NCBI RefSeq assembly: GCF_002367995.1
Contig: NZ_AP018213.1
Location: 1-35,884 of the forward strand
Origin: Calothrix brevissima NIES-22
Lineage (GTDB): Bacteria > Cyanobacteriota > Cyanobacteriia > Cyanobacteriales > Nostocaceae
Reading direction: 5' to 3'
Length of the DNA: 35,884 nucleotides
Both the position numbers and the translations under genes were made by a program. Position 1 is the stretch's first letter, and the number at the start of each line of letters is the position of its first letter. Shown here piece after piece: positions 1,874 through 35,884 of the stretch. The notes beneath the pieces are model-generated. The model was not told where the DNA came from. It saw only the letters and a program-made list of their open reading frames with translations, and did not search any database.

Positions 1874-3457
1874 TTAAAATGCTGTATCCACAAATCTTGA
1901 AGCTTTCAGAGGATAAGCTGTTGGAGTGACTTTAACTTTTGCAGGTTTTGTACCGTCAGCAATTAATAGATATCCTTCTAAGGGTGGCAGTCCTTGCAGT
2001 TCACTGGGTAATACAGCAGAAGTTTCTCGGATGTGCTGGTTAACAGAGCGGGTTTCACTGAACCAACTGTTACCACTTCTGCCTTGAGTTGTTTCTAAGC
2101 GTTCCTGGGAGCCAATTAATCTGGAGCATAATTCAGCGGTGCTATAGTCCCGGCAATTGAGGATGAGTTTAGTGCAACAACCTTGGAGAATTGTTTGCAT
2201 TCCGTACTCGCCGTAAATGTTGGCGATTTGACCTGTCAGCTGAGTACCGAGCATTCCAATACCTGAGAATTTTCGTCCTTCTGCTAGCAAGCGTTCTAAA
2301 CCAACCAGCTTACCCAGGGCTGATAGTTCATCAATGCAAATTACAGTTTTGATGTGGTGGTTCTCGTTGCTCAACAGTCCCCTGAGCATTAATGAAAATG
2401 CCATTGTGTACAGGGGTTTAAACAGTTCGGCTTCGTTTTCAAATATCGGCAGGAATATCCATCTATTGTCATCTTCTTTGCCCCAGCGACTCCAAGAAAA
2501 GTCTGCTGTGGTTTGATGATCAGCGAGGACTTTGTAGAATCGCAGGTAGTTAATGGCTGAACTTTTAATGCCGGCGGCGGTGTTTTCTGCTTCTAAATAT
2601 GTGGCGCTGAGTGTGCCAGTGAGCAGGTTTTTTAATTCTTGTATCGGTTTAAGTGCTATCATCTGCCAAACTTCGGCGTTGGTAGATGTTTTGGCGTACA
2701 AGTCAGATAGCAGTCCTTTGGCGGCTTCATTCCAAAATGGGTCTTTACCTTCTGGGCTGGGAGGAATTAAGCCGGCGGCGATGGTTTCAAATTCCATGTC
2801 TTCACTGCGGTGGCTCCAATGAATTGTTCTGCTGTCTCTGGGGTTGAAGATGAGGGTGTTGTCATCACCGAATTTTTCTAAGATTTCGCCGGAACGGTCT
2901 AAGCAGATAACGCGGTAATCTGGGCGCGATCGCATAATGGAAAGCATTTTCAAAATGGCTTGGGTCTTGCCGGAGCCAGGGGAACCCAAGAACATAAATG
3001 ATAATGGTGCTAAATCATCGGGTAGTTGAATTTCTGCGATTTCCAGTCTGGGTAGTGTCTGCGGTAATATCTGCTGTTTCTTGATCAGCGATTGTTCTTT
3101 GTGCCGCAGTTGTTTCTGTAATTGCTGTGGTGTTTGCAGTTGGGAACCGCGTACAACTCCTGTGACTAGTCTTTCTGGAATGACGGCTATGACAAAGCCC
3201 AAAATTAGGTTGTAGCTCCAAAAGTTCTGCCAGCCGATAATGGGTGTGAGGAGTAATTCGAGGAGAGTGATTGCTAGACCAATTTTTAATGCCAGTTCTT
3301 TACTGGTGGAACCAGACAATATATAGATACCGCATAACATCATCGGGAAAACAGGCCCGGTGAATTTGGCTGTGCCGTAAGCTATTGCACCAAAGAAAAA
3401 TGCAATGCCCAAGCCAATCATGGCTGATGGGTCGGGCTGGTGATTTTGATGAAACAT
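1874..3457 (-). CDS. type IV coupling protein, VirD4/TraD/TraG-like ATPase
   Basis: This 527-residue protein has hydrophobic segments at about residues 12-48 and 58-95, then a soluble ATPase domain. The Walker A motif GSPGSGKT is at about 158-165 and the Walker B motif VICIDEL at about 372-378. GTQLTGQI near 404-411 fits motif III of the VirD4/TrwB family. Proteins of this family sit in the inner membrane as hexamers and hand the relaxase-DNA complex to a type IV secretion channel. It lies directly downstream of the relaxase gene and upstream of the TPR gene, all on the minus strand, as in mobilization operons. No VirB-type channel genes are in the window, so a complete conjugation system is not shown here. 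Start: ATG at 3457; the first membrane segment begins soon after, which fits. Confidence 0.88.
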   Translation of the reverse strand: MFHQNHQPDPSAMIGLGIAFFFGAIAYGTAKFTGPVFPMMLCGIYILSGSTSKELALKIGLAITLLELLLTPIIGWQNFWSYNLILGFVIAVIPERLVTGVVRGSQLQTPQQLQKQLRHKEQSLIKKQQILPQTLPRLEIAEIQLPDDLAPLSFMFLGSPGSGKTQAILKMLSIMRSRPDYRVICLDRSGEILEKFGDDNTLIFNPRDSRTIHWSHRSEDMEFETIAAGLIPPSPEGKDPFWNEAAKGLLSDLYAKTSTNAEVWQMIALKPIQELKNLLTGTLSATYLEAENTAAGIKSSAINYLRFYKVLADHQTTADFSWSRWGKEDDNRWIFLPIFENEAELFKPLYTMAFSLMLRGLLSNENHHIKTVICIDELSALGKLVGLERLLAEGRKFSGIGMLGTQLTGQIANIYGEYGMQTILQGCCTKLILNCRDYSTAELCSRLIGSQERLETTQGRSGNSWFSETRSVNQHIRETSAVLPSELQGLPPLEGYLLIADGTKPAKVKVTPTAYPLKASRFVDTAF

Positions 3458-3545
3458 TGGCTGTTACCGATTTAAATCAAAATTAGTTTGTTTGCACTGT
3501 TCTAGTGATGCAGTCCCTGGTGGTTGTAAGCGGAGTGCTGTTGAG

Positions 3546-4727
3546 TTATCGGCTCAATCCCCGTCGTCTTGGTTGTTCTAGCTGTTGTTCAAGTTCTTCT
3601 TCTAATTCATCTATTACCAAGTCGAGTAATTCTTCTAGTTCTGCTTGGGTGCGTGGAATTGAACCATGTTTTATAGTTTCTTTGATGTCTTCTGCTGGTT
3701 CTTCTTGCTCTAGTAGGTGGGAGATAATTTTTTTATCTCGGTCGTCAGATGACAATGCAGTTGCAGTTAGCGCTAGTGATAGTTGTTGATATCTCTGTTG
3801 CCAGGGGTTAAGTTCAGGTTGCTCTTGGGGTTTTACTTCAGGATGTTCTTGATGTTGGTTGAGTTGAATTTGTGAAAGTTGTTGTGTGGGTTTGGCTGGA
3901 TTTAATAACAGTGAAATAATGCGGTGGTCGTCGCGTTTTGGTTGATAATCGACTCGCTTGTGTTTCTGCAATCCGGGGAATGTGTAAGCTGCACCCAAAG
4001 ATGTGCCGCTAAATTGCTGGTCTTTCATTGAATATGAAATGCCTTTACTCTTGCCGTTGCGCGTTAAGCCGTGGCGAACTTTCACGCCTTGGATTTGCAA
4101 TCGCTCAATCAGTTGCGGCATTGTGGGAGAGTCTGTGGTGGCGCGGTCGATTAGTTCTTGCAGCTGTTGTTTGATGGGTGGTTCTTGTGGCGAAAGGCGA
4201 TCGCCTTTTAAATACTCTTTCTGTTCTCGTTCTATCCGTCTTTGTTGCCCAATACTTGGTTTACGCGATAATTTCTCGTGGCTACCTAGAGTTGGTTGTA
4301 AGCCGTAATCTCTTTCTAGCTGTCGGATGATACTTTCACTGCGTTTGTAGTCCCAGCTATCACGTACAATCTTCCCGTTATCTAAACGTATGCGACTGGC
4401 GCAGATGTGGATGTGGTCGTGTTGGGTGTTGTGGTGTCTGTAGACTACGTACTGGTTGCTGTCAAAGCCCATCTCTTCGAGATAGCGGTTGGCGATTTCA
4501 TTCCAGGTTTCATCGTCTAGTCGCTCGTTGTCTGGTAGTGATAATGAAGCGTGGTACACTACTCGGTCAGCTTCGGGGTTTAATTGACGGGAGATTTTGA
4601 ATTCTCTGGCCAGTGCAATGGCATTGTTACCACCCATGTTGCCACCAATGAGTTTGGCATCTTCTTGAGATTGTAGATAATCGAGGAGTCCCCGGAATCC
4701 TTGTCCTTTAGTCTGGTTGCCAATCAT
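3546..4727 (-). CDS. relaxase / mobilization nuclease (MobA/VirD2-type)
   Basis: This 393-residue protein is the DNA-strand transferase that nicks oriT and stays covalently attached to the 5' end. The N-terminus (MIGNQTKGQGFRGLLDYL) matches the Relaxase/mobilisation nuclease family, with Tyr17 the likely catalytic residue. The metal-binding motif HHNTQHDHIHI lies at about residues 98-108. The C-terminal third is Q/E-rich and ends in RRRGLSR. I chose ATG at 4727 over a TTG at 4751: it has a GAGGA ribosome-binding site about nine bases upstream and gives the standard family N-terminus. It overlaps the end of mobC by 20 bases, which implies translational coupling. The coupling-protein gene follows 88 bases downstream. 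The family assignment is strong; the MOB subclass is not resolved by eye. Confidence 0.93.
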   Translation of the reverse strand: MIGNQTKGQGFRGLLDYLQSQEDAKLIGGNMGGNNAIALAREFKISRQLNPEADRVVYHASLSLPDNERLDDETWNEIANRYLEEMGFDSNQYVVYRHHNTQHDHIHICASRIRLDNGKIVRDSWDYKRSESIIRQLERDYGLQPTLGSHEKLSRKPSIGQQRRIEREQKEYLKGDRLSPQEPPIKQQLQELIDRATTDSPTMPQLIERLQIQGVKVRHGLTRNGKSKGISYSMKDQQFSGTSLGAAYTFPGLQKHKRVDYQPKRDDHRIISLLLNPAKPTQQLSQIQLNQHQEHPEVKPQEQPELNPWQQRYQQLSLALTATALSSDDRDKKIISHLLEQEEPAEDIKETIKHGSIPRTQAELEELLDLVIDELEEELEQQLEQPRRRGLSR

Positions 4728-5106
4728 CTGTTTCCTCGTCTGTTTCTTCAATGAAGGTGTTGGCTATTTCTCGCTGGCAGTGTCGTAGCAGTTCTAGTAG
4801 TTCGTTTAATAGTTTTGGATCTGTTGGCGGTGGGAGTTGCATTTTGATGGCGGTGTTTGTGGCTTTGGCTAGTTGGTTGATGTTATTGCCAATGCGCGAA
4901 AGTTCTAAGTATGTAGCAAGAGTAACTCTGCCCAGTCGTGGCGGTGGTGGGGGGATTGGTCGCAGTAACATACAGCGTCTTGTCAATTCTGCCAAGCTCA
5001 TGCTCGCATCTTCTGCCTTTGAGCGAATCATCTCGTATTCAATGGGGCTGAATAGTGCTTGCAGCCTTTTGGTGCGGACGAGTGATTGAGAAGAACGCTT
5101 GGTCAT
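4708..5106 (-). CDS. mobC: MobC-like relaxosome accessory protein
   Basis: This 132-residue basic protein carries the MobC signature LSRIGNNINQLAK at about residues 68-80, after an RHH-like N-terminal region (FSPIEYEMIRSKAEDASMSLAELTR, shown here only in part as the DNA-binding segment at about 19-43). MobC proteins bind oriT and help melt DNA around the nick for the relaxase. The tail is acidic (EETDEETDDW). The open frame extends upstream to 5313, but that extension covers repeat-rich DNA and has no family resemblance, so I start at ATG 5106. It is the first gene of the leftward mobilization operon and lies next to the candidate oriT. A proline run (PIPPPPPRLG) precedes the signature helix. 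Confidence 0.85.
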   Translation of the reverse strand: MTKRSSQSLVRTKRLQALFSPIEYEMIRSKAEDASMSLAELTRRCMLLRPIPPPPPRLGRVTLATYLELSRIGNNINQLAKATNTAIKMQLPPPTDPKLLNELLELLRHCQREIANTFIEETDEETDDWQPD

Positions 5107-5300
5107 GATTTCATACCGAACTTTGTGCAACTTGTTGAGGGGGTTTCCAAAGGGGGAGACTTCCCACTTTGGCAAGCCTGCCGAGTCGAGCGTAGCGAAG
5201 ACAGTCCGAAGGACTAGGCATGGCTTGCTCCTCACCCGGTTTTCGGGAAGGCAGGAGAGCGCAGGGTGGCCGCCCATGTGGGGGCAATGTGCGTATTGGG

Positions 5301-5384
5301 CTGCTACTGCCAATCAAACGGACGCGAAAATTATGCGCTGCTACTGCCAATCAAACGGACGCGAAAATTATGCGTTGATTGGCA
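5301..5384. other. oriT: candidate origin of transfer (oriT): tandem 37-bp repeat plus inverted arm
   Basis: Bases 5301-5337 and 5338-5374 are two exact 37-base copies. Each contains TGCCAATCAA, and immediately after the second copy comes the inverted form TTGATTGGCA (5375-5384). The second copy and this arm therefore make a 10-bp stem around ACGGACGCGAAAATTATGCG. The site lies between the divergent mobC-relaxase and StbABC/TraKLM-like operons, the usual place for oriT. The region 5110-5300 beside it is rich in short G/C palindromes such as AGTCCGAAGGACT. The function is inferred from position and structure; the nick site cannot be assigned. Confidence 0.5.
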
Positions 5385-8695: not shown

Positions 8696-8892
8696 TTTCA
8701 ATAAAGGCGAGTTTGTCAATTCAACAAAATCTAAATATAATACCCTTCTTGAAGAAGGCTCCAAGCGTTGCAATCACAGCAAAAAAAGTCAATAGCTTGA
8801 TAGAAGCGTTTCAGAAAACGCCTATAATGCTTACTTACACAAATAGGGATTAATAGATATAATAGACATATTCATGGGTATTGAATTTAAAT

Positions 8893-9531
8893 ATGAATAC
8901 TCAATTGAGCTTAAACCTTTGGGCTGATACACTTACCTCAAACTTACAGCCGGAAAAACTTTCTATTCCTGATGGAGATATTATATTTTACCCAAGCTAT
9001 TTCACAGAAGAAGAAAGTAATCGGATAATTCAAGAATTATTTAGAGAAATAAATTGGGGGCAAGATAAAATAAAATTCTATGGTAAAGAAATGAACTTAC
9101 CGAGGCTGACTGCTTGGTATGGTGATTCTGGCAAATATTATACATATTCAAATATTACAATGAATCCAATACCTTGGACACCAATGTTATTGTATATTAA
9201 AAATAAAATTGAAACAGTCGCTGAAGTAGTTTTTAACAGTGTATTACTCAATTTTTACCGTAATGGTAAAGACAGTATTTCATGGCATTCTGATGATGAA
9301 CCAGAATTGGGAAAAGAGCCAATAATTTATTCTGTAAGCTTTGGAGGAGAAAGAAAATTCCAGTTGAGACACAAATATAAAAATAATTTAGAAAAAATTG
9401 AATTAAAATTAAATCACGGTAGTCTTTTAATTATGCAAGGTAAAACGCAGGAATATTGGCAGCATCAGATACCTAAAACTTCCAAACTTGTAATGCCAAG
9501 AGTAAATCTAACTTTTAGAATTATAAAATAA
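8893..9531 (+). CDS. alkB: AlkB-family 2-oxoglutarate/Fe(II) dioxygenase
   Basis: This protein of 212 residues belongs to the AlkB family, which removes alkyl groups from DNA or RNA bases by oxidative demethylation. The iron-binding triad is visible: H-x-D in ISWHSDDE (about H132 and D134) and the distal His in WQHQIPK (about H191). The 2-oxoglutarate-binding arginines lie in RVNLTFR near the C-terminus. NFYRNGKDSISWHSDDE and the following YSVSFGGERKF strand are typical of the ALKBH2/3-like group. I start at ATG 8893; a TTG at 8881 would add four residues. It is AT-rich compared with the plasmid backbone genes. Intact catalytic residues suggest an active enzyme. Confidence 0.9.
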   Translation: MNTQLSLNLWADTLTSNLQPEKLSIPDGDIIFYPSYFTEEESNRIIQELFREINWGQDKIKFYGKEMNLPRLTAWYGDSGKYYTYSNITMNPIPWTPMLLYIKNKIETVAEVVFNSVLLNFYRNGKDSISWHSDDEPELGKEPIIYSVSFGGERKFQLRHKYKNNLEKIELKLNHGSLLIMQGKTQEYWQHQIPKTSKLVMPRVNLTFRIIK

Positions 9532-10067
9532 ATTGAATACATAGCTCCGTTTGCTGGTGACTACATATTAATTTGTATCCACACAAAATAAAAATTCAAT
9601 ATAAAAAGTCAATGTACAACTATGGTGTAGATTGTTTAGTTGCAGCTTGCTTTGATGTTGATTTTTTATGCAATATTTCTAGGAAATAATGATAGATTTG
9701 GCATTTTGAACTACTACTATTTATATTTGGCTCTTCCAAACTAGATATGTTAAATTAACAACAGAAATACCAATTTAGTTTACTTAAACTGTCCAACTGA
9801 AAGGGAATTCTTTTTTAGAGGAGCTAAAACAAAAGCTTTTCTAGAGTCAACTGAATACATTTAGTTATTAACCTCGCTAAATATTAGCGTAGCTTGTTAC
9901 TGTATAAAGTTTGCTACGCATTAGGATTTTTTAACTTGTGCAGTTTCTCTGTTAGCCTTTCTCCCACAACAGCGATACGCAGTAATGGCTCTCAAAAAGC
10001 TTTCGGAGCCAGGCTTTCATATCCAAAGTAAGAAATGGCATTAAGACTGTTGCTTAATCCCGATTGT
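9532..10067. other. non-coding spacer
   Basis: About 540 bases with no credible gene, lying between the 3' ends of the alkB-like gene and the rep gene. There is a small palindrome CGCTAAATATTAGCG at 9875-9889 and scattered short repeats of the cyanobacterial intergenic type. A 25-codon ATG frame near 9613 has no support. Confidence 0.5.
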
Positions 10068-12809
10068 TCATCCAATTCCCAACCAAGGCCGCAGATTAGC
10101 ACGGCGAACTTTCACCCCTGGCTGAGTCTTCGTCCCAATCCGAATATCATTTGATTGCCCACACTCCCAAACATAAACTAATTCGCCATTATACTCAGCC
10201 AACGAATCTACACTCAGTCGCCACACACTATTAGCCGCATCCTTAATATGTTGCAGTTGGTCATGATTAAACCCAGCAACCGCTTGACGTAATTCCTCAA
10301 CTCTTAGCGACAACACCAGCTGACCCAGTGACGACCTATCATCCCAGTTATTAATCATCTGCTGCGTCACAGATGGACTAGTGACGACCTTTTGCGCCTC
10401 ATCGGTCGTCACCGTGACGACCTCTTGACGACCCAAAACACTTTCTGTTGTTGGATTTCCTTCCAGTGACGACCCATCCCCCTCATTCTGCTCCACAGGA
10501 GATAACATCGAGCTGCATTCGTTGCTCTCTTCTGTGATTCCATGAGCAAAAAGGTCGTCACTTGTAAAAAATCCGTCACTACCAATACTTTCAGTCGTCA
10601 CTTGGGTTGTCAATTCTGTCTTCACTAGGTCGTCACCTTTTTGAATAAGGTCGTCACTAGTAGAAATCAACAACGGGAAATTATTCCCTGGCTTGCGGAT
10701 ACCAACACAAGTAATAAACCGTCCCTTATTGGTTTTGCGCTTAGTAGCATCAATCCCCAATTGCGCTTTCAGCAAATTCAGCAACGTACTCGAAAACCGT
10801 TGCTTATTCATCGTTCCTTGCCCGTTATTACTCGCCCATTGCGCGTAATTGGGATAAAGAAACTCTTCGGGGTTTTGGCTAATATCACCAATACCCGTAA
10901 TAGCTTTGGGGTCATAGTACAAACATTCATCAGCCCAATTCGCCAAAGGATTAGTCTCCATGAGGATTTCTTTGCTAAAAGCCGCCAATGACGGCACTTT
11001 GCTATTTGTATCCACAAACAAATCCTGAACTTGGGCAAAGGGCATTTCTAGCACCCAGGACAGCAAACCAGGCAGATAAGGCGTAAACTCCGCTATCAAA
11101 TCCCGGCGCTGATGGGGCGGAATGACATGATTAAACGGCATCGACAGGCGACGGCGAGCTGTAGCGTTAGTGTAATCCGTGCTTTGCATCGCTTCATTGG
11201 CAGCTACCATCACCACACCATGAAATTTAAAACTGCCAGTTTGCTGTACTCCTTTCTTCTCATGTCGCAGGTCGTCATAGCCTGTAATGGCTTTAAAGAC
11301 ACTGACATCACCTGTGTAGCGTTCTGAATCAGTAATACAAATCAGCTTCTTACCGTAGAAGGAAGCTGTTTCAAAGCGATTTTGTTCTAGTTGCTTCAGA
11401 GTAGTGATAGCGTAGTTTTCTTTACCGACTAATTCCTGTACTAGTCTCAGGATTGTGCCCTTCCCAGTACCGCCAGCGCCGATTAACTCTAAATACCTTT
11501 GCATCTTGCCGCCCCGTTCGGTAATGGTGGCGTTAATGGCAGCGCGAATTACTTCCACCCACAGCAGTTGACCGTCACAAACTTCCAGTAGCCATTGCTT
11601 GATAGGGTCACAACCGACACTGCGGTCAGCCCACTTAAAGGGCAACTGTGTCAGCATTCGATAACCAGGGGCGTGGGGGTAGGTTTTCAGGGTATTCACA
11701 TCCAGCACGCAATCTTGTAAGCAGATGAAGCCAGGACAGACTTCCCAGTGATTAATTCTTAAATCCCCCTTGAGGAGATTCAGGGTATTAGCTACAAACC
11801 GATAGCCAAAATCTGGTCTGCGAGATCGCAATTCTGTGACGATAATATCTTGGGCTTCCTCATGGGGAATTTCACCCCAGACACCCTGCTTTTGTTCGGC
11901 TTCATACCAGTACCAAGCTTTATTGGCTACGTGCCAAGCTAGGCGATTGCGGTAATTTTCCGCGATAAATGCTGCAAAAGCTGATTCTGACAACATTTTG
12001 TTGTCAATTTCGCTTTCGCGGAACTGACGTTCCCAAACTTCTAAGGAAACAGCTTTAGCTAGCACTTTCTCTCGAAAAGCGTCGTCGCCGTTGGCTTGAA
12101 TATAATCGTCCATTCCTTTCCCCTCATCTGTACTCCAGTTGCCTGTGGCGATGTACACAGGCACTTTAAACTTAGCTAATTGGTGAGCTAGTTTTCTTTG
12201 GGCGGCAATCACATTTTTGTTAGTAACAGCGCGTTCGTCCGCGTCAAAGGCAATAATCCAGCCAAAATTAGCACGGGCTAGGAATTCTAGGGTATCGACT
12301 AGGTAACGTTTGCCTTGGGGGTCGTTTTTGGCGGGTGTTAAGCCTTGTTCGACACCAGCCAGGGCTACTGTGGGTAAGTCGTGAGAACAGCCGGCGATCG
12401 CCTTAAATAGTCCCTCGGTCAAAAGTAAGCAAGGATGACCGTTGATGTGATAACAAAGTGCTTTGAGGGCTTCTAAATCCACCCAGTAGCGCGGATTGTG
12501 GGGATGACGGGGTAACATTGCGTCATATTCTTCTTTGGTAGCTGTGCGATACTTGGGGGCTTTTTTCTCGTCGGTGTTTTTCCAGGGCTTGTTAGGGCGG
12601 TACTGCCCAAAACCGTTGCTGCCTTCTAGCCAAATGCCAGCTGATTGGGCTGTGTATCCTAAGCGCTGGGTCGCTTCTTTAATGTCCATTGAGCGACAGT
12701 TAGCAGCTATCCATTCAGGGCATAAACCGCGTTTTGTTACACACTCTTTGTAGTGTCTGTCTGTAAGTCTTTTGGTAGTCAGCGTTGCGGTTGTTGGTGT
12801 AGTATTCAT
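10068..12809 (-). CDS. plasmid replication protein: TOPRIM-like primase plus SF3 helicase
   Basis: This 913-residue protein is probably the replication initiator. Residues about 110-240 look like a TOPRIM/DUF3854-type domain: LLLTEGLFKA supplies the conserved Glu (about 132) and FDADE the D-x-D (about 189-191). Residues about 435-570 form an SF3/D5-type helicase domain: Walker A GAGGTGKGT (about 444-452), Walker B LICITDSE (about 489-496), sensor Asn in VMVAANEA (about 533-540) and the ARRRL arginine cluster near 551. A linker of about 715-850 is S/T/D-rich and low-complexity, and its DNA holds the GTGACGACC repeats listed separately. The C-terminal 80 residues form another small domain. A 53-residue RHH protein gene lies upstream on the same strand, as in many rep/cop modules. 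Confidence 0.88.
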   Translation of the reverse strand: MNTTPTTATLTTKRLTDRHYKECVTKRGLCPEWIAANCRSMDIKEATQRLGYTAQSAGIWLEGSNGFGQYRPNKPWKNTDEKKAPKYRTATKEEYDAMLPRHPHNPRYWVDLEALKALCYHINGHPCLLLTEGLFKAIAGCSHDLPTVALAGVEQGLTPAKNDPQGKRYLVDTLEFLARANFGWIIAFDADERAVTNKNVIAAQRKLAHQLAKFKVPVYIATGNWSTDEGKGMDDYIQANGDDAFREKVLAKAVSLEVWERQFRESEIDNKMLSESAFAAFIAENYRNRLAWHVANKAWYWYEAEQKQGVWGEIPHEEAQDIIVTELRSRRPDFGYRFVANTLNLLKGDLRINHWEVCPGFICLQDCVLDVNTLKTYPHAPGYRMLTQLPFKWADRSVGCDPIKQWLLEVCDGQLLWVEVIRAAINATITERGGKMQRYLELIGAGGTGKGTILRLVQELVGKENYAITTLKQLEQNRFETASFYGKKLICITDSERYTGDVSVFKAITGYDDLRHEKKGVQQTGSFKFHGVVMVAANEAMQSTDYTNATARRRLSMPFNHVIPPHQRRDLIAEFTPYLPGLLSWVLEMPFAQVQDLFVDTNSKVPSLAAFSKEILMETNPLANWADECLYYDPKAITGIGDISQNPEEFLYPNYAQWASNNGQGTMNKQRFSSTLLNLLKAQLGIDATKRKTNKGRFITCVGIRKPGNNFPLLISTSDDLIQKGDDLVKTELTTQVTTESIGSDGFFTSDDLFAHGITEESNECSSMLSPVEQNEGDGSSLEGNPTTESVLGRQEVVTVTTDEAQKVVTSPSVTQQMINNWDDRSSLGQLVLSLRVEELRQAVAGFNHDQLQHIKDAANSVWRLSVDSLAEYNGELVYVWECGQSNDIRIGTKTQPGVKVRRANLRPWLGIG
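10328..10657. repeat. iteron-like array of GTGACGACC motifs inside the rep gene
   Basis: Ten copies of a 9-base motif GTGACGACC lie within 330 bases. Plus orientation: 10328, 10381, 10414, 10425 (one mismatch) and 10466. Minus orientation: 10404, 10553, 10593 (one mismatch), 10628 and 10649. Copies at 10404-10412 and 10414-10422 form a perfect palindrome with a one-base centre, and the last two are 21 bases apart. The copies are read in different frames of the rep protein (VVT, VTT, DDL, SSL, GRQ), so it is the DNA that is conserved and not the peptide. The array is probably a Rep-binding region or origin embedded in the gene. Confidence 0.8.
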
Positions 12810-13108: not shown

Positions 13109-13270
13109 TTACTTCTTGCTCGCTTTTTTTTCATGGTCTGTTACTGCTTGCTGGGCGATTAGCTCAACTAAATTTGATAGCGTTCGGTTTTCGCTGTCCG
13201 CCCATTCTTGTAGTTTTTCTTTTAACTCAGGACTGCACGTAAAAGTTACTTTCGCCTTAGACGTTGCCAT
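13109..13270 (-). CDS. 53-residue ribbon-helix-helix DNA-binding protein (CopG-like)
   Basis: This short gene encodes a basic RHH protein. The strand KVTFTCSP (residues 7-14) is followed by helix LKEKLQEWADSE and, after the turn NRTLSN, by helix LVELIAQQAV, the Arc/CopG pattern. The C-terminus is lysine-rich. The ATG is at 13270, and a promoter-like pair lies directly upstream. RHH proteins of this size upstream of a plasmid rep gene usually repress rep transcription, so a copy-control role is the best inference, with the inverted GGGTAACTCC sites near 12838 and 12929 as candidate operators. No similarity search was done. The reverse-strand frame over it (13039-13242) is not a gene. Confidence 0.75.
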   Translation of the reverse strand: MATSKAKVTFTCSPELKEKLQEWADSENRTLSNLVELIAQQAVTDHEKKASKK

Positions 13271-25041: not shown

Positions 25042-27531
25042 CTAACTCCTAAGTGTTATTGGTAACAATAATGTATCCTCTAATTCTTGTTTTACTTGGG
25101 AGCTTACGGAACATTCACTATTTAGGCAATTGACTAACAAGAGATTAGCATCATAGTACTGCTGCAACAGGCTCAGTTGATGGTTACTAAATTGTAAATC
25201 ATGTCCAATATCGCGATATTCAGTCATGACATATCTGAGTTGTTTAGTCCAAGTTTGACCATTTGACTTCCACCAATTTCCGTAGTCTTCGCAATTTTCT
25301 TGGCAGTTAATTGGTAGTTCTTCCTTCAGTCTTTTCAAACAAATTTGTAAGTTTGGGTAGTTTGGGTCAAGAGCATATTCACACGCGAGATTGAGTGCGT
25401 TAATTAGAATGTTGATTATGTTGAGTTCAATAGTAATCGCACAGGTACAAGCGTGTGCGACTCCGAGAGCTAAGAAAAGGGCACGGTCAAGGACAAGATC
25501 AGAGCTGATGTTGGAATCGAGGGCTAGATCGAGGATACGGATGTTGTCATCGTCAGGGTCGATAGCAGTGTTTTTGTCTATGCTGCGGGCAAGAGAACCA
25601 TGAAGTGCTAAGTCGAAAGAGAACATTGGGTCAAAAGAGGGTGTGTGTGTGCGGTGGACAAGTTCAAGAGTGCGTTGAAGATGTAAGGCGGAAACGTTTA
25701 CGCGGTTGATAACTTCGGCAAGGTCAAAGGTGCGAGCAAGGTCGAGGGCGCGAGCAAGGTCGAGATAGAAGGCTCTAATGGCCGCAGGTTTATAAGATGC
25801 TTTGACAGAATTAGATTTCTTTCTTACCCAGCTACGAAATTGCTGCAATGCTTCATCACTCGCGAATAGCATATCAATTTGAGATTTCATCAATTGTAAA
25901 AAATAGTCTGCACTCTCTAACATTCCTACTGTTAGTAAAAAAATTTCTCGCCAGCGTTTTTCGTTAATTTTTGTAACCAAATATTGCAACATTTCGGCTT
26001 GTTTTCTATCTGGTTTAGAAGGGTTAGAAATTTCTTTAGCTGCAAAGTATTCGTGAAAAGTTAAATGTGAGAAAGAGTAAATACCTTTCGCTCTTTCTAT
26101 TAATAACCCATGTTGAGATTCAATTAATTTTATTATTCCTTCACTGTCCAAATCTAATTCTTCTTGAAGATTACTATGAGCCATTAAATTACTCATGTAT
26201 TGAATAATATATGTCTCAATATATTCCTGTTTAAAGAAGTAGTCACCACGCTCAAAAGTTTCTAGAGCAAATTGGCTTAGTAAATCCTTTTGTCTTCGTA
26301 ATGATAAATCTTTGTATACTTGGCTACGCTTAATATTTCGCTTTATATCCCATTTTTTGAACAAGATATCTAAACCTTCTTCATACAATTTAGAGCGATT
26401 TGATGGAAATTTACCAAATTCTTCAAACACTAAACACAACAAGGTCAAGAATAACGGATTTGTTGCTATATCTTGTATAGGTTTATTCTTTTGTAATTCT
26501 CTAATAATTTCTTGAGATTTAATTAAATTGTTTTTAATCCCAAACCATTTGTTAATAAAATTGGTAATCTGTTCCCAATTAAAATCTGCAATTTCAGCTT
26601 CAGTAAAATTCTCAAAAGTGTATTCTTGTGCAGCAATCCGACAGGTAATTACATAATAATTTTTATGATACTGAATTGTAAATTCTTTAATGATGTTTAA
26701 AATTAGATTGCTATCTTCTTTCTTAACTTCGTCTAGCCCATCTAATAAAATTAACAACCTACCTTCATTGAGAAGTTGTTCTACATCAGCTTTATTGGGA
26801 TAGTTTATGAGTTGATTTAAGTAGTCTAATAAACTGGGTTGGTTAGGTAACTCTGCAAAATCCTTCAGTGTAATAAATAAAGGGATATGCTGCGCTCTAA
26901 ATCTACCCTCAATACACTGGAGTGCTAAAAACTTGAGAAATGTAGTTTTGCCAGCCCCAGGTTTACCTAAAATCATTAGCTTTGAGTATTTCTCCACAGC
27001 TTCCATCCCAGGAACTTGTTCTTTACTTACTTTTCCCAGAGTAAACCGCTCAAAATTCTCAAAAGAAGTACTTTCTAAAAGTTCATCTCTTTTTAGTCTT
27101 CTACGCCTAGTGATTTTCTCTAATACATTGACATTGATATAGATATCTTCTAAGTCTATCGGTTGTGTCATATCTAAAACTCGCATCATGCCGCACCGTT
27201 GAATAATGCGATCCTGGAGTTTTTCTCGTACTGTCTCTACTAAATTATCAATACTTAGAGTCTTAACTGATAACTCTGGTTGAGCAGAAGCGTTATCTGT
27301 AGATGTGCTATTGTCACAAACCTGTTCCCAATCAACCTTTACAGCTTTGCAAATAGCAATAAATGTACTTGCAGTAATTGGTTTGCCCTCCCAAAACCGC
27401 TTTAAAGTCGGCACTGTAGTATATGCAGCGTCAGCCCAAGCCTGTGATTGCCTTCCCCAACCTTTCTTGTTTGCTTCTTCTTCAACTAAATATTTTCCTA
27501 ATTTAGTGGCTCTGAGGGTATCCCTGGGCAT
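25042..27531 (-). CDS. NACHT NTPase with N-terminal helix-turn-helix
   Basis: This 829-residue protein begins with an XRE/HTH-like domain (about 8-70) in a form common to cyanobacterial NACHT proteins (TVPTLKRFWEGKPITASTFI, then AICKAVKVDWEQ). A NACHT NTPase follows: Walker A GKPGAGKTT at about 189-197, Walker B LLILLDGLDEV at about 259-269 with the typical acidic cluster. Residues about 330-520 form the winged-helix/helical NACHT tail (FSHLTFHEYFAA). The C-terminal 200 residues include a leucine/alanine/aspartate-rich region with degenerate DLA repeats (ALDLARTFDLAE, ILDLALDSN). Bacterial NACHT proteins include anti-phage NLR-like proteins, so a defence sensor is a good inference. ATG at 27531 is the only start that gives the full HTH. 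Confidence 0.88.
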   Translation of the reverse strand: MPRDTLRATKLGKYLVEEEANKKGWGRQSQAWADAAYTTVPTLKRFWEGKPITASTFIAICKAVKVDWEQVCDNSTSTDNASAQPELSVKTLSIDNLVETVREKLQDRIIQRCGMMRVLDMTQPIDLEDIYINVNVLEKITRRRRLKRDELLESTSFENFERFTLGKVSKEQVPGMEAVEKYSKLMILGKPGAGKTTFLKFLALQCIEGRFRAQHIPLFITLKDFAELPNQPSLLDYLNQLINYPNKADVEQLLNEGRLLILLDGLDEVKKEDSNLILNIIKEFTIQYHKNYYVITCRIAAQEYTFENFTEAEIADFNWEQITNFINKWFGIKNNLIKSQEIIRELQKNKPIQDIATNPLFLTLLCLVFEEFGKFPSNRSKLYEEGLDILFKKWDIKRNIKRSQVYKDLSLRRQKDLLSQFALETFERGDYFFKQEYIETYIIQYMSNLMAHSNLQEELDLDSEGIIKLIESQHGLLIERAKGIYSFSHLTFHEYFAAKEISNPSKPDRKQAEMLQYLVTKINEKRWREIFLLTVGMLESADYFLQLMKSQIDMLFASDEALQQFRSWVRKKSNSVKASYKPAAIRAFYLDLARALDLARTFDLAEVINRVNVSALHLQRTLELVHRTHTPSFDPMFSFDLALHGSLARSIDKNTAIDPDDDNIRILDLALDSNISSDLVLDRALFLALGVAHACTCAITIELNIINILINALNLACEYALDPNYPNLQICLKRLKEELPINCQENCEDYGNWWKSNGQTWTKQLRYVMTEYRDIGHDLQFSNHQLSLLQQYYDANLLLVNCLNSECSVSSQVKQELEDTLLLPITLRS

Positions 27532-31867: not shown

Positions 31868-32434
31868 TTAACTAAAACGCTGCATCATTGATTGCGCTCG
31901 CTTCATATTAGCAACCTGCATTCGCTGCTCTCCTTTTGCTTTCGCCAGTGCCAGAATATCCTGCCATGCTTGGGGGTCAGCTTCATAGTGTTCAAATAAT
32001 GCTTCTATTAATACTTCCCGGCTGATGCCATTAGCTTTGCAAACTTTACTCAAGCGTTCACTCAGTTCTGCTTCCAGGCGAATCGTACTTTGCTTGGTTT
32101 TGAGTTCTGAATGCGTAGATACCTTGGCATCCTGATATCTAGATGTCGAGATATCTTGACTGCTAGATGTAGGGGTATCTTGAGTATTAGAATCTGGAAT
32201 CCCCTGGTTACTAGATACCTCTGTATCTTGATATCCAGATGTCGAGATATCTTGACTGCTAGATGTAGGGGTATCTTGAGTATTAGAATCTGAAATCTCC
32301 TGATTATTAGATACCTCTGTATCTTGATATCTAGATGTCGAGATATCTTGATTGCTATTAGTTAAGGAGGCATCACGGGTGGGAACACTGGGACGTTGAC
32401 GTTTTTTCAGGCGTTCTAGGGCATCATCACTCAT
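31868..32434 (-). CDS. RHH-domain partition partner protein (ParB-like role) with internal repeats
   Basis: This 188-residue protein overlaps the upstream parA by eight bases, the classic parA-parB arrangement. Residues about 108-150 form a ribbon-helix-helix domain (STIRLEAELSERLSKVCKAN and GISREVLIEALFEHYE). Residues about 25-105 are a low-complexity S/T/Q/D region made of 32-residue repeats with QDISTS, YQDTEVS and QDTPTSSS. The corresponding DNA is a 96-bp repeat carrying TATCTAG-type motifs, listed separately. RHH centromere-binding proteins of type Ib Par systems bind iterated sites near their operon, so this one may bind motifs inside its own gene. The extended disordered region may contact ParA. 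Confidence 0.75.
   Translation of the reverse strand: MSDDALERLKKRQRPSVPTRDASLTNSNQDISTSRYQDTEVSNNQEISDSNTQDTPTSSSQDISTSGYQDTEVSSNQGIPDSNTQDTPTSSSQDISTSRYQDAKVSTHSELKTKQSTIRLEAELSERLSKVCKANGISREVLIEALFEHYEADPQAWQDILALAKAKGEQRMQVANMKRAQSMMQRFS
32134..32355. repeat. 96-bp tandem repeats within the partition-partner gene
   Basis: The sequence from GATATCTAGATGTCGAGATA at 32134 recurs at 32230 and 32326, an exact period of 96 bases (two full copies and a partial third). The DNA is dense in GATATC, TATCTAG, TAGATAC and GTATCTTG words on both strands, resembling the motif upstream of parA (33244-33299) and of the 35282 gene. It may serve as a centromere (parS) embedded in coding sequence. Confidence 0.75.
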
Positions 32435-33191
32435 GGGTCAGCATTTTGATAATTTGCTCAAAGGGATATTGCAGGTCGCTGTATCCAAGTTCAGATAACA
32501 GTTTTCCTTTGCGGATGGCACGTTTAAACTGTTCTGACTCTCGAATAGAGGGTAACACGGGAATATTGCCAGCAAATTCTCTCATAGCAGCAATGTTCTC
32601 TTTACCCTCAATAGTTTGAGTGTTGCCAATCCACCGATCTCGAAAAGGGATTACTCCTAGTACCTGTCCTGTAAATGCCATGATTGATGTTTGGTCTTGT
32701 AAAAAGTCCAGAGTATCAATTAAAGAATTAACTCCTTTAGTGGTGGCTTCTACAGGAATTAGAACTGTGTCCGATGCGCCTACTGCGGTTAAACAGATTT
32801 GCGATCTGGAGGGCTGGACATCAATAATTACGTAATCAAATAAAGATTGCACATTACGTAATCGCAGTTTAAGGATAAACGCACCTGTGCCACTGTTAAT
32901 TAGGTAATCTGAAACTTTGAACAAGCTTCTATCAGCAGGGATGAGGAACAGGTTACTGTGTTGCGTGGGATAAATGCCGTCTTCTGTGGTAACAGCACCA
33001 GTAAGGACTTCTAGCAAACTGGGCTGATTGGCAGCTACTTCGTGATTTAGGTAAAAAGTTAAATTGGCTTGTGGGTCACAGTCTATGGCTAAGACTCGTT
33101 TACCCTGACTGGCCAGCAGCAGAGAGAGAAAAAAAGCTACAGTGGTTTTCCCTTGTCCGCCGGAAAGCGAAACACAGGCACAGGAAAGCAA
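32427..33191 (-). CDS. parA: ParA-type partition ATPase
   Basis: This protein (254 residues from TTG 33191) has the Walker A sequence SGGQGKTT (about 10-17). LAIDCDPQANLTFYL (about 34-48) is the Walker A' strand, and FDYVIIDVQPS the Walker B. In standard ParA the P-loop begins KGG; here the signature lysine is replaced by serine, which I recall as usual for a cyanobacterial plasmid subgroup. ParA drives plasmid positioning with its DNA-binding partner, here the RHH protein encoded next with an eight-base overlap. The frame is open to a TTG at 33257, but those codons lie in the repeat-rich operator region; starting at 33191 gives the normal short N-terminus. Start uncertain. Confidence 0.85.
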   Translation of the reverse strand: MLSCACVSLSGGQGKTTVAFFLSLLLASQGKRVLAIDCDPQANLTFYLNHEVAANQPSLLEVLTGAVTTEDGIYPTQHSNLFLIPADRSLFKVSDYLINSGTGAFILKLRLRNVQSLFDYVIIDVQPSRSQICLTAVGASDTVLIPVEATTKGVNSLIDTLDFLQDQTSIMAFTGQVLGVIPFRDRWIGNTQTIEGKENIAAMREFAGNIPVLPSIRESEQFKRAIRKGKLLSELGYSDLQYPFEQIIKMLTHE

Positions 33192-33243
33192 TTTATATAT
33201 TGTCCAACTCAATAACGAAAAGCTTACACACAGTATTTCTTTA

Positions 33244-33299
33244 TGTCTAGATGTCAAGGTATCTAGAACTAAAGGTATCTGGATATCCCGATACCTAGA
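33244..33299. promoter_or_regulatory. parA operator with TATCTAG-type repeats
   Basis: Four related sites lie in 56 bases: TGTCTAGAT (33244), TATCTAGAA (33260), TATCTGGAT (33276) and, inverted, ATACCTAGA (33291). The first three are spaced 16 bases apart. They are just upstream of the chosen parA start, where an RHH partner would repress transcription and/or assemble a partition complex. Confidence 0.65.
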
Positions 33300-35397: not shown

Positions 35398-35884
35398 AAG
35401 GAGAAGAGCTTTCTCTTAAAGGTCTTTTTAAAGCTCTTGGCAGCTAGAAAACCCTTGTGGAGACTGAACTTGAGGATTTTGCTCTTTTCAAGAGCAAGAG
35501 CAGTAAGATAAGGAGAAGAGCTTTCTCTTGAAGGTTTTTTAAGCTTTCTCTTAAAGGTCTTTTTAAAGCTCTTGGCAGCTAGAAAACCCTTGTGGAGACT
35601 GAACTTGAGGATTTTGCTCTTTTCAAGAGCAAGAGCAGTAAGATAAGGAGAAGAGCTTTCTCTTGAAGGTCTTTTAAGCTTTCTCTTAAAGGTCTTTTTA
35701 AAGCTCTTGAAAGCTAGAAAACCCTTGTGGAGACTGAACTTGAGGATTTTGCTCTTTTCAAGAGCAAGAGCAGTAAGATAAGGAGAAGAGCTTTCTCTTG
35801 AAGGTTTTTTAAGCTTTCTCTTAAAGGTCTTTTTAAAGCTCTTGAAAGCTAGAAAACCCTTGTGGAGACTGAACTTGAGGATTT
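35398..35884. repeat. tandem array of 135-bp units running off the window
   Basis: CCCTTGTGGAGACTGAAC begins at 35452, 35587, 35722 and 35857, an exact period of 135 bases. The first, partial copy starts near 35398 and lacks about 23 bases present in later copies; the last is cut by the window end. Copies differ at only a few bases (CTTGGCAG versus CTTGAAAG; GTTTTTT versus GTCTTTT). Each unit has internal stems, such as GCTCTTTTCAAGAGC and several CTTTCTCTT/AAGAG words. No ORF spans it. Recent amplification is evident; an origin, a partition site or a structured RNA are possible. Confidence 0.9.

Follow-up and report, generated by a model that had tools for sequence, protein, structure and literature searches.

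A candidate replication site of facing iterons embedded in the rep coding sequence of cyanobacterial plasmids

Introduction

What function can a short word have that is repeated ten times, in both orientations, within the protein-coding sequence of a plasmid replication gene, and which protein would read it? The question is raised by the rep gene of the window, by which we mean the whole stretch of Calothrix brevissima NIES-22 DNA analysed here, one whole contig of 35,884 bases from a nine-contig genome of 9.26 Mb. Information on Rep proteins of cyanobacterial plasmids is described as limited in the available text of one paper (PMC10899382), and the studies on CyRepA and CyRepX deal, in their accessible portions, with other Rep types (PMC10079941, PMC10899382). 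Origins inside initiator genes are already known, as are iteron sites of primase-helicases of the D5 type. The original prediction regarded iterons inside rep as unusual; they are not without precedent, as the available excerpts of two papers show for lambda O (PMC3985674) and the RepA_N protein of pSK41 (PMC5703833).

Results

Domain structure of Rep

The rep gene (10068-12809, minus strand) encodes a protein of 913 amino acids. As evidenced by Pfam, NCBIfam, VIA-align and an AlphaFold model, the order of domains is a DnaG-like TOPRIM primase (DUF3854), a D5-type helicase, a winged helix, a disordered linker and a C-terminal domain. The N-terminal DUF3854 spans residues 128-243 (PF12965, 1.8e-22 in Pfam) and the helicase, D5_N plus DUF5906, residues 279-553 (11151-11975, minus strand). 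A D5_N/primase_Cterm helicase core is present, the NCBIfam model primase_Cterm scoring 103.7 bits against a cut-off of 108.7. The winged helix, our proposed reader of the iterons, comprises residues 651-704 (10698-10859, minus strand) and is seen in the AlphaFold model as two helices and two strands, while in Pfam it gave only a Pox_D5 match at an E of 0.0094, below the cut-off. Residues 718-811 (10377-10658, minus strand), with a pLDDT of about 25, are the sole long disordered stretch in the model; the array adjoins this linker and lies within it for nearly all of its length. The C-terminal domain, residues 812-913 (10071-10376, minus strand), is folded in the model and conserved in 14 chosen relatives, so that the array is evidently translated through.

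A Foldseek search of the C-terminal domain against the PDB gave no match at E<=0.001. Neither a RepA_N nor a phage O domain is among the Pfam hits of Rep up to an E of 0.01, and instead of a C-terminal DEXDc helicase Pfam finds D5_N/DUF5906. The closest solved fold is that of the SaPI5 primase-helicase.

Near rep, on the opposite strand, lies an oxygenase of the 2OG-FeII_Oxy_2 family of 2OG-Fe(II) enzymes (8881-9531), presumably AlkB-like. The window further contains a mobilisation module (1877-5313) with a TrwB-like coupling protein, a MobA/VirD2-type relaxase and a NikA/MobC protein, as well as a NACHT protein with a C-terminal NCH2 helical domain (25045-27531). A 135-bp tandem repeat (35407-35884; 3.5 copies, 98% match) reaches the contig end and is perhaps the place where the assembly of a circle broke.

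The iteron array of the window

A recount found GTGACGACC at 10328-10657 in eight exact copies and two with one mismatch, in both orientations, just as predicted, and the readings of the copies in the rep frame, VVT, VTT, DDL, SSL and GRQ, are likewise as claimed. Block 1 consists of four copies on the minus strand (10649-10657, 10628-10636, 10593-10601 and 10553-10561), all exact except the third, which has one mismatch. A central spacer of 78 bp (10475-10552) separates it from block 2, with copies on the plus strand at 10466-10474, 10425-10433, 10414-10422, 10381-10389 and 10328-10336, the second with one mismatch and the others exact, and the last one within the initial part of the C-terminal domain. 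Within block 2, the copy at 10404-10412 (minus strand) is oriented as in block 1, and as this copy faces the wrong way the array is not strictly two-block. It forms the left arm, and the copy at 10414-10422 the right arm, of what had been called a perfect palindrome; the inverted repeat is real, with two 9-bp arms around one central base, but it is not perfect, 18 of its 19 positions matching. Three further GTGACGACC-like copies with two mismatches were found from 10553 to 10657. Note that the spacer of the window is not richer in AT than the linker plus C-terminal part (0.526 against 0.533).

Across the whole window there are 15 matches to GTGACGACC with at most one mismatch, compared to 2.42 on average and at most 7 in 100 dinucleotide shuffles, and the five that lie elsewhere (3740, 3926, 11270, 28289 and 30729) each carry one mismatch. 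The exact 9-mer is present 8 times in the window contig, versus 16 times in the remainder of the genome. The codon-shuffled control proposed with the original prediction came out in its favour: in 20,000 shuffles of residues 701-845 the exact word appeared 0.34 times on average and at most three times, and no 9-mer of any kind exceeded four.

Occurrence of the array in homologous rep genes

Three sources supplied the relatives: plasmid records, of which 77 matched (many only distantly); 291 genomes of the order, of which 81 matched at E<=1e-30; and genome contigs, which contributed 64 loci. A profile of the helicase end matched 98 open frames, the match extending through the winged-helix end in 95, and the removal of near-duplicates left 62; 61 homologues were tested, L049 being left out as too short after the winged helix. 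When the commonest 8-mer in the DNA after the winged-helix-coding end was compared with 200 local codon shuffles, it proved to be over-represented in 50 of the 61 at p<=0.05 and in 47 at p<=0.005. A control segment of equal length before the winged-helix end yielded one of 61 at either level. As a further control we used 72 other open frames of at least 400 codons from the same loci, taken as they stand, whose last 600 bases scored in four cases at p<=0.005, one of these being a simple in-frame repeat. The suggestion that the array marks a class of replicons is supported by its frequency among the homologues.

Eleven homologues were without a significant array (L011, L018, L035, L040, L042, L046, L061, L080, L088, L095 and L105). 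One of them, L011, is a near relative of array-bearing plasmids and has GTGCTGAC in three exact copies, or ten with up to one mismatch. L061, L080 and other array-less relatives keep Rep and its C-terminal domain with no recognisable array in rep. A search of the fetched flanks of all eleven, 159 to 4000 bases long, for exact 8-mers present at least four times within 450 bases gave nothing convincing beside rep: the repeats of L061, L018 and L105 are at least 1 kb from the linker start, L095 has in-frame 45-bp units alone, and the remaining seven showed no exact 8-mer cluster. In L049, a member of the family with a short tail whose frame ends 17 residues after the winged helix, no comparable array was found downstream; GATCGCCA occurs four times within 600 bases (p 0.006), and three of these copies sit within GCGATCGC, a common cyanobacterial repeat that we take to be HIP1.

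A scan of viral contigs returned no relative, and among phages none of the 690 records that matched Rep did so across more than 80% of the protein. Three records were inspected. S-EIV1 (L122) has no array within or after its primase. In LR797314 (L123) the frame stops shortly past the winged helix, and four exact and two near copies of TTGTGCTG follow just 3' of the stop (p 0.044). In P4, included as a comparator, an annotated crr with type 1 repeats (GGTGAACA) starts 45 bp past the alpha stop codon, and a separate annotated origin region with type 1 repeats is found at 9310-9413.

Conservation and confinement of the iterons

The conservation of iterons was assessed in 18 ordered pairs of near relatives, chosen for a common word and some of them taken in both directions. 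In these pairs 934 of 1016 iteron bases were identical, compared to 4639 of 6184 other bases in the first 400 of the linker; the iterons were better conserved in 17 of the 18 pairs, and in 16 when the comparison took in linker and tail at full length. The window and L054 agree at all 72 iteron bases, as against 69% of the remaining bases among the first 400. Near relatives thus retain the motif better than the surrounding linker, in agreement with the claim that selection acts on the DNA, and the alignment of homologues bears this out further, in that near relatives keep the word while far relatives swap it and retain much of the layout.

The words are also nearly exclusive to rep. In the window contig and six whole plasmids, i.e. 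circular records of which two are near relatives of the window, 52 copies of the respective own 8-mer are located in rep and a single one outside. In the same seven sequences the GC-skew extremes are 1.1 to 11.1 kb away from the array and in no fixed relation to it, and the original idea of locating an origin by GC skew thus failed to place one at the array.

Diversity of words, recurrence of layout and helical phasing

The iteron words across the lineages include GTGACGAC, GTGCTGAC, GTGACGG, GTGATGG, CTGACGAC, GTGACAAC, GTGTAGAC, GTGCAGAC and TGCACCAC, and in 34 of the 50 arrays GTG stands near the 5' end of the first-block consensus. As to whether coexisting reps avoid each other's iteron, raw counts for pairs of rep genes from the same genome give a different iteron in 12 of 14 (in two of these by one base) and a common core in two of 14.

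Despite the differing words a layout recurs, consisting of a block, a spacer, a mirror block and helical phasing. Exact copies are found in both orientations in 43 of the 50 arrays, the remaining seven being one-sided, and 37 of the 43 have a single change of orientation, where 8.6 are expected from shuffled strand labels with either order allowed; the window array, owing to its copy at 10404-10412, is one of the six that are not strict. The central spacer has an AT content of 0.62 versus 0.52 in the rest of the linker and is the richer of the two in 36 of the 37 strict arrays. Neighbour spacings cluster at 9-12, 21-22, 31-33 and 41-42 bp and fit best to a period of 10.8 bp (R 0.68, n=365, the spacings coming from related genes and being non-independent). 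Multiples of 3 make up 61% of the spacings, and the others (n=142) show phasing of at least equal strength (R 0.74 at 10.5 bp). In 49 of the 50 arrays the copies fall into at least two frame/strand states.

Candidate readers of the array

The 53-residue RHH protein encoded upstream of rep (13109-13270, minus strand) had been put forward as a reader. We rejected this candidate, as the RHH protein of L013 is 98% identical to that of the window, yet the word of L013 is GTGCTGACT. In L009 Rep is 97% identical to that of the window and the iterons are the same, while the RHH protein is merely 38% identical, and L010, with the same iteron as the window, has no RHH hit upstream or across the whole plasmid. 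L055 combines the word of the window with an RHH protein of 89% identity. The 53-residue protein is perhaps a repressor of rep.

A second RHH protein of the window, with 188 amino acids (31871-32434, minus strand), adjoins a ParA (32430-33257, minus strand). Its low-complexity N-terminal half derives from 96-bp tandem units, with seven copies of TATCTTGA, all in one frame and on one strand, and these units may be an intragenic partition site or a mere peptide repeat. On a related plasmid, L116 (NZ_CP050444.1), the gene at 25435-26673, beside a ParA at 26690-27433, contains ACAAGTCA 32 times in both orientations, an arrangement resembling a centromere within the gene for the partner of ParA.

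For Rep itself, iteron similarity was correlated with residue similarity, corrected for overall identity, in 48 homologues, with registers set by eye; of the 50 arrays, those of L099 and L100 were omitted. The winged helix, which holds 60 of the 629 tested columns, was not singled out and contributed one of the top 25 and six of the top 50 columns; most top columns are in the helicase, and the correlation is confounded by relatedness.

The clade words were verified in 19 sequences. In a tree built without the winged helix, L014 (mostly GTGCTGACT) groups with L059, L063, L066 and L067 (GTGACGAC) at 100/100, and the window clade (GTGACGACC) stands beside plasmids with GTGCTGACT, placements that imply at least two changes of word (GTGACGAC/GTGCTGAC) in the clade. 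Two word classes (9 versus 8 sequences) are separated by 15 of 705 ungapped columns, and six of these, 644, 657, 663, 666, 691 and 701, lie in residues 640-708, an enrichment with a P of 0.0013 in a statistic that ignores relatedness. Residues 691 and 701 are situated in the two strands of the wing in the AlphaFold model: R691 with C or A701 accompanies GTGACGAC, and V or I691 with K or H701 accompanies GTGCTGAC. Recombination of the 3' part could give the same picture of class-specific residues. Taken from sequence comparison, the evidence for Rep as the putative reader is mixed.

Discussion

Known systems resemble the cyanobacterial arrangement in different respects. P4 alpha, SaPI5 Rep and SCCmec Cch2 are likewise initiators of the D5 (primase_Cterm) primase-helicase type with iteron sites, and SaPI Reps, according to the available text, use their C-terminal domain to bind iterons directly 3' of their own gene, apparently in the form of two hexamers (PMC7581432). 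In those systems the site is outside the gene, whereas the cyanobacterial array, although it also adjoins the winged-helix-coding end, is within the open reading frame and followed by a further folded domain; moreover, the cyanobacterial primase is of the DnaG-like DUF3854 type, and the word has diversified between lineages of one family while the layout recurs. ORF904 of pRN1, as described in the accessible part of the source, combines a primase, an SF3 helicase and a winged helix with an essential cis site directly 3' of the gene (PMC4234260), but its primase is an archaeo-eukaryotic prim-pol and its site a stem-loop instead of iterons. The position relative to the winged helix is the same for the SaPI, P4 and pRN1 sites as for the cyanobacterial array, but here the frame runs across.

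Like the lambda origin, pSK41 and the pT181 dso, rep has sites within the initiator gene, here candidate sites in the part that codes for the linker. The lambda origin is located inside gene O (PMC3985674), and for pSK41 RepA_N and the pT181 dso the excerpts available describe an origin inside the initiator gene whose encoded peptide is dispensable for replication (PMC5703833, PMC3985674). These initiators are unrelated to the cyanobacterial Rep, and in contrast to lambda, with its four 19-bp iterons, the cyanobacterial initiator carries its own helicase and its blocks face each other. CyRepA1 and CyRepA2 of cyanobacterial plasmids have the N-terminal DUF3854 in common with the present Rep (PMC10079941, in the portion consulted). 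They differ in their C-terminal DEXDc helicase, where Rep has a helicase of the D5 type, and the array is in the 3' part of the rep gene, while in that portion the ORF of CyRepA2 and the region upstream of it are reported to be necessary. Iterons inside the present rep genes were not found described in the open-licence literature, as judged from titles and the starts of abstracts. Going by the available parts of the sources, what seems new is the combination of known elements, its spread among plasmids of cyanobacteria, and a word that diversifies within a layout that recurs.

We consider it likely, with a probability of about 0.7, that the array is a cis-acting replication site, an origin or its core, situated within the sequence that codes for its own initiator, with the winged helix as the reader. 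This reading builds on the non-random words, their layout, phasing, conservation and near-exclusivity on the plasmids, on the predicted disorder of the encoded peptide and on the predicted fold of Rep, and the initial description of the array as resembling an origin or Rep-binding site gains support, as a candidate, from the same comparisons. The winged helix would bind the 9-bp iterons, the two facing blocks would seat two helicase rings head to head across the spacer, and the spacer would then open for the primase domain to start synthesis. The simplest history, we infer, is that the reading frame was extended over a site formerly located 3' of the gene, the peptide encoded by the array now being a disordered tether to an added C-terminal domain; the repeats just 3' of the phage frame in L123 (p 0.044) lend this weak support, and the short-tailed L049 has no comparable array downstream.

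A more modest role would be that of a control or accessory site, for copy number or plasmid pairing as with the P4 crr, that Rep binds while synthesis starts elsewhere, for instance in the AT-rich region 9541-10067 downstream of rep. That region has an AT content of 67%, P4 does have an origin region besides the crr adjoining alpha, and GC skew does not mark the array; the SaPI and pRN1 origins, however, are described in the available texts as lying directly after a rep gene whose C-terminal part binds DNA, and both the single own-iteron copy outside rep among 53 and the spacers, richer in AT than the rest of the linker in all but one of the strict arrays, speak for the array itself, so that we regard an accessory role as unlikely. 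Still less probable is a role in partition or as an operator, with the upstream-encoded RHH protein or some other protein of the plasmid as the reader. Proteins of the RHH type bind short repeats in both orientations, and an RHH gene is found upstream of rep in the window and some relatives, with a gene annotated as ParG at this place in one of them. The 89% identical protein of L055 goes with the same word, but L013, L009 and L010 uncouple protein and iteron, the array is at the opposite end of rep from the gene start, and the window has a separate ParA with an RHH partner.

That the repeats are a by-product of a low-complexity peptide or of repeat expansion, with no function as DNA, we hold to be very improbable. 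The excess of spacings that are multiples of 3, the purely in-frame units of L095 and the repeats in four of 72 other frames would fit such an origin, but codon shuffles that preserve the peptide fail to reach the observed count, all arrays but one use two or more frame/strand states, and phasing also holds for the spacings not divisible by 3.

Starting again from a replication site read by the winged helix, a wider scenario can be drawn, to which we give somewhat less than an even chance. A large class of cyanobacterial replicons would have moved a 3' origin of the P4/SaPI type into the gene, its facing, phased blocks would seat two rings, and the iteron word and the wing would change together, so that a single gene would reveal the specificity of the plasmid. 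With initiator, specificity domain and origin united in one stretch of DNA, the replicon would be inherited and recombined as a single, self-contained unit.

One gene would thus encode a protein and, probably, the binding site of that protein in the same bases, as far as can be told from the DNA. For dozens of plasmids the origin, the specificity word and the reader are predicted from sequence alone, and rep plus its promoter may constitute a full replicon, a prediction that would be useful for vectors. About 50 naturally occurring combinations of a winged helix with an iteron become available for studying the evolution of initiator specificity, and it may be possible to read the docking code of a plasmid family from its sequence.
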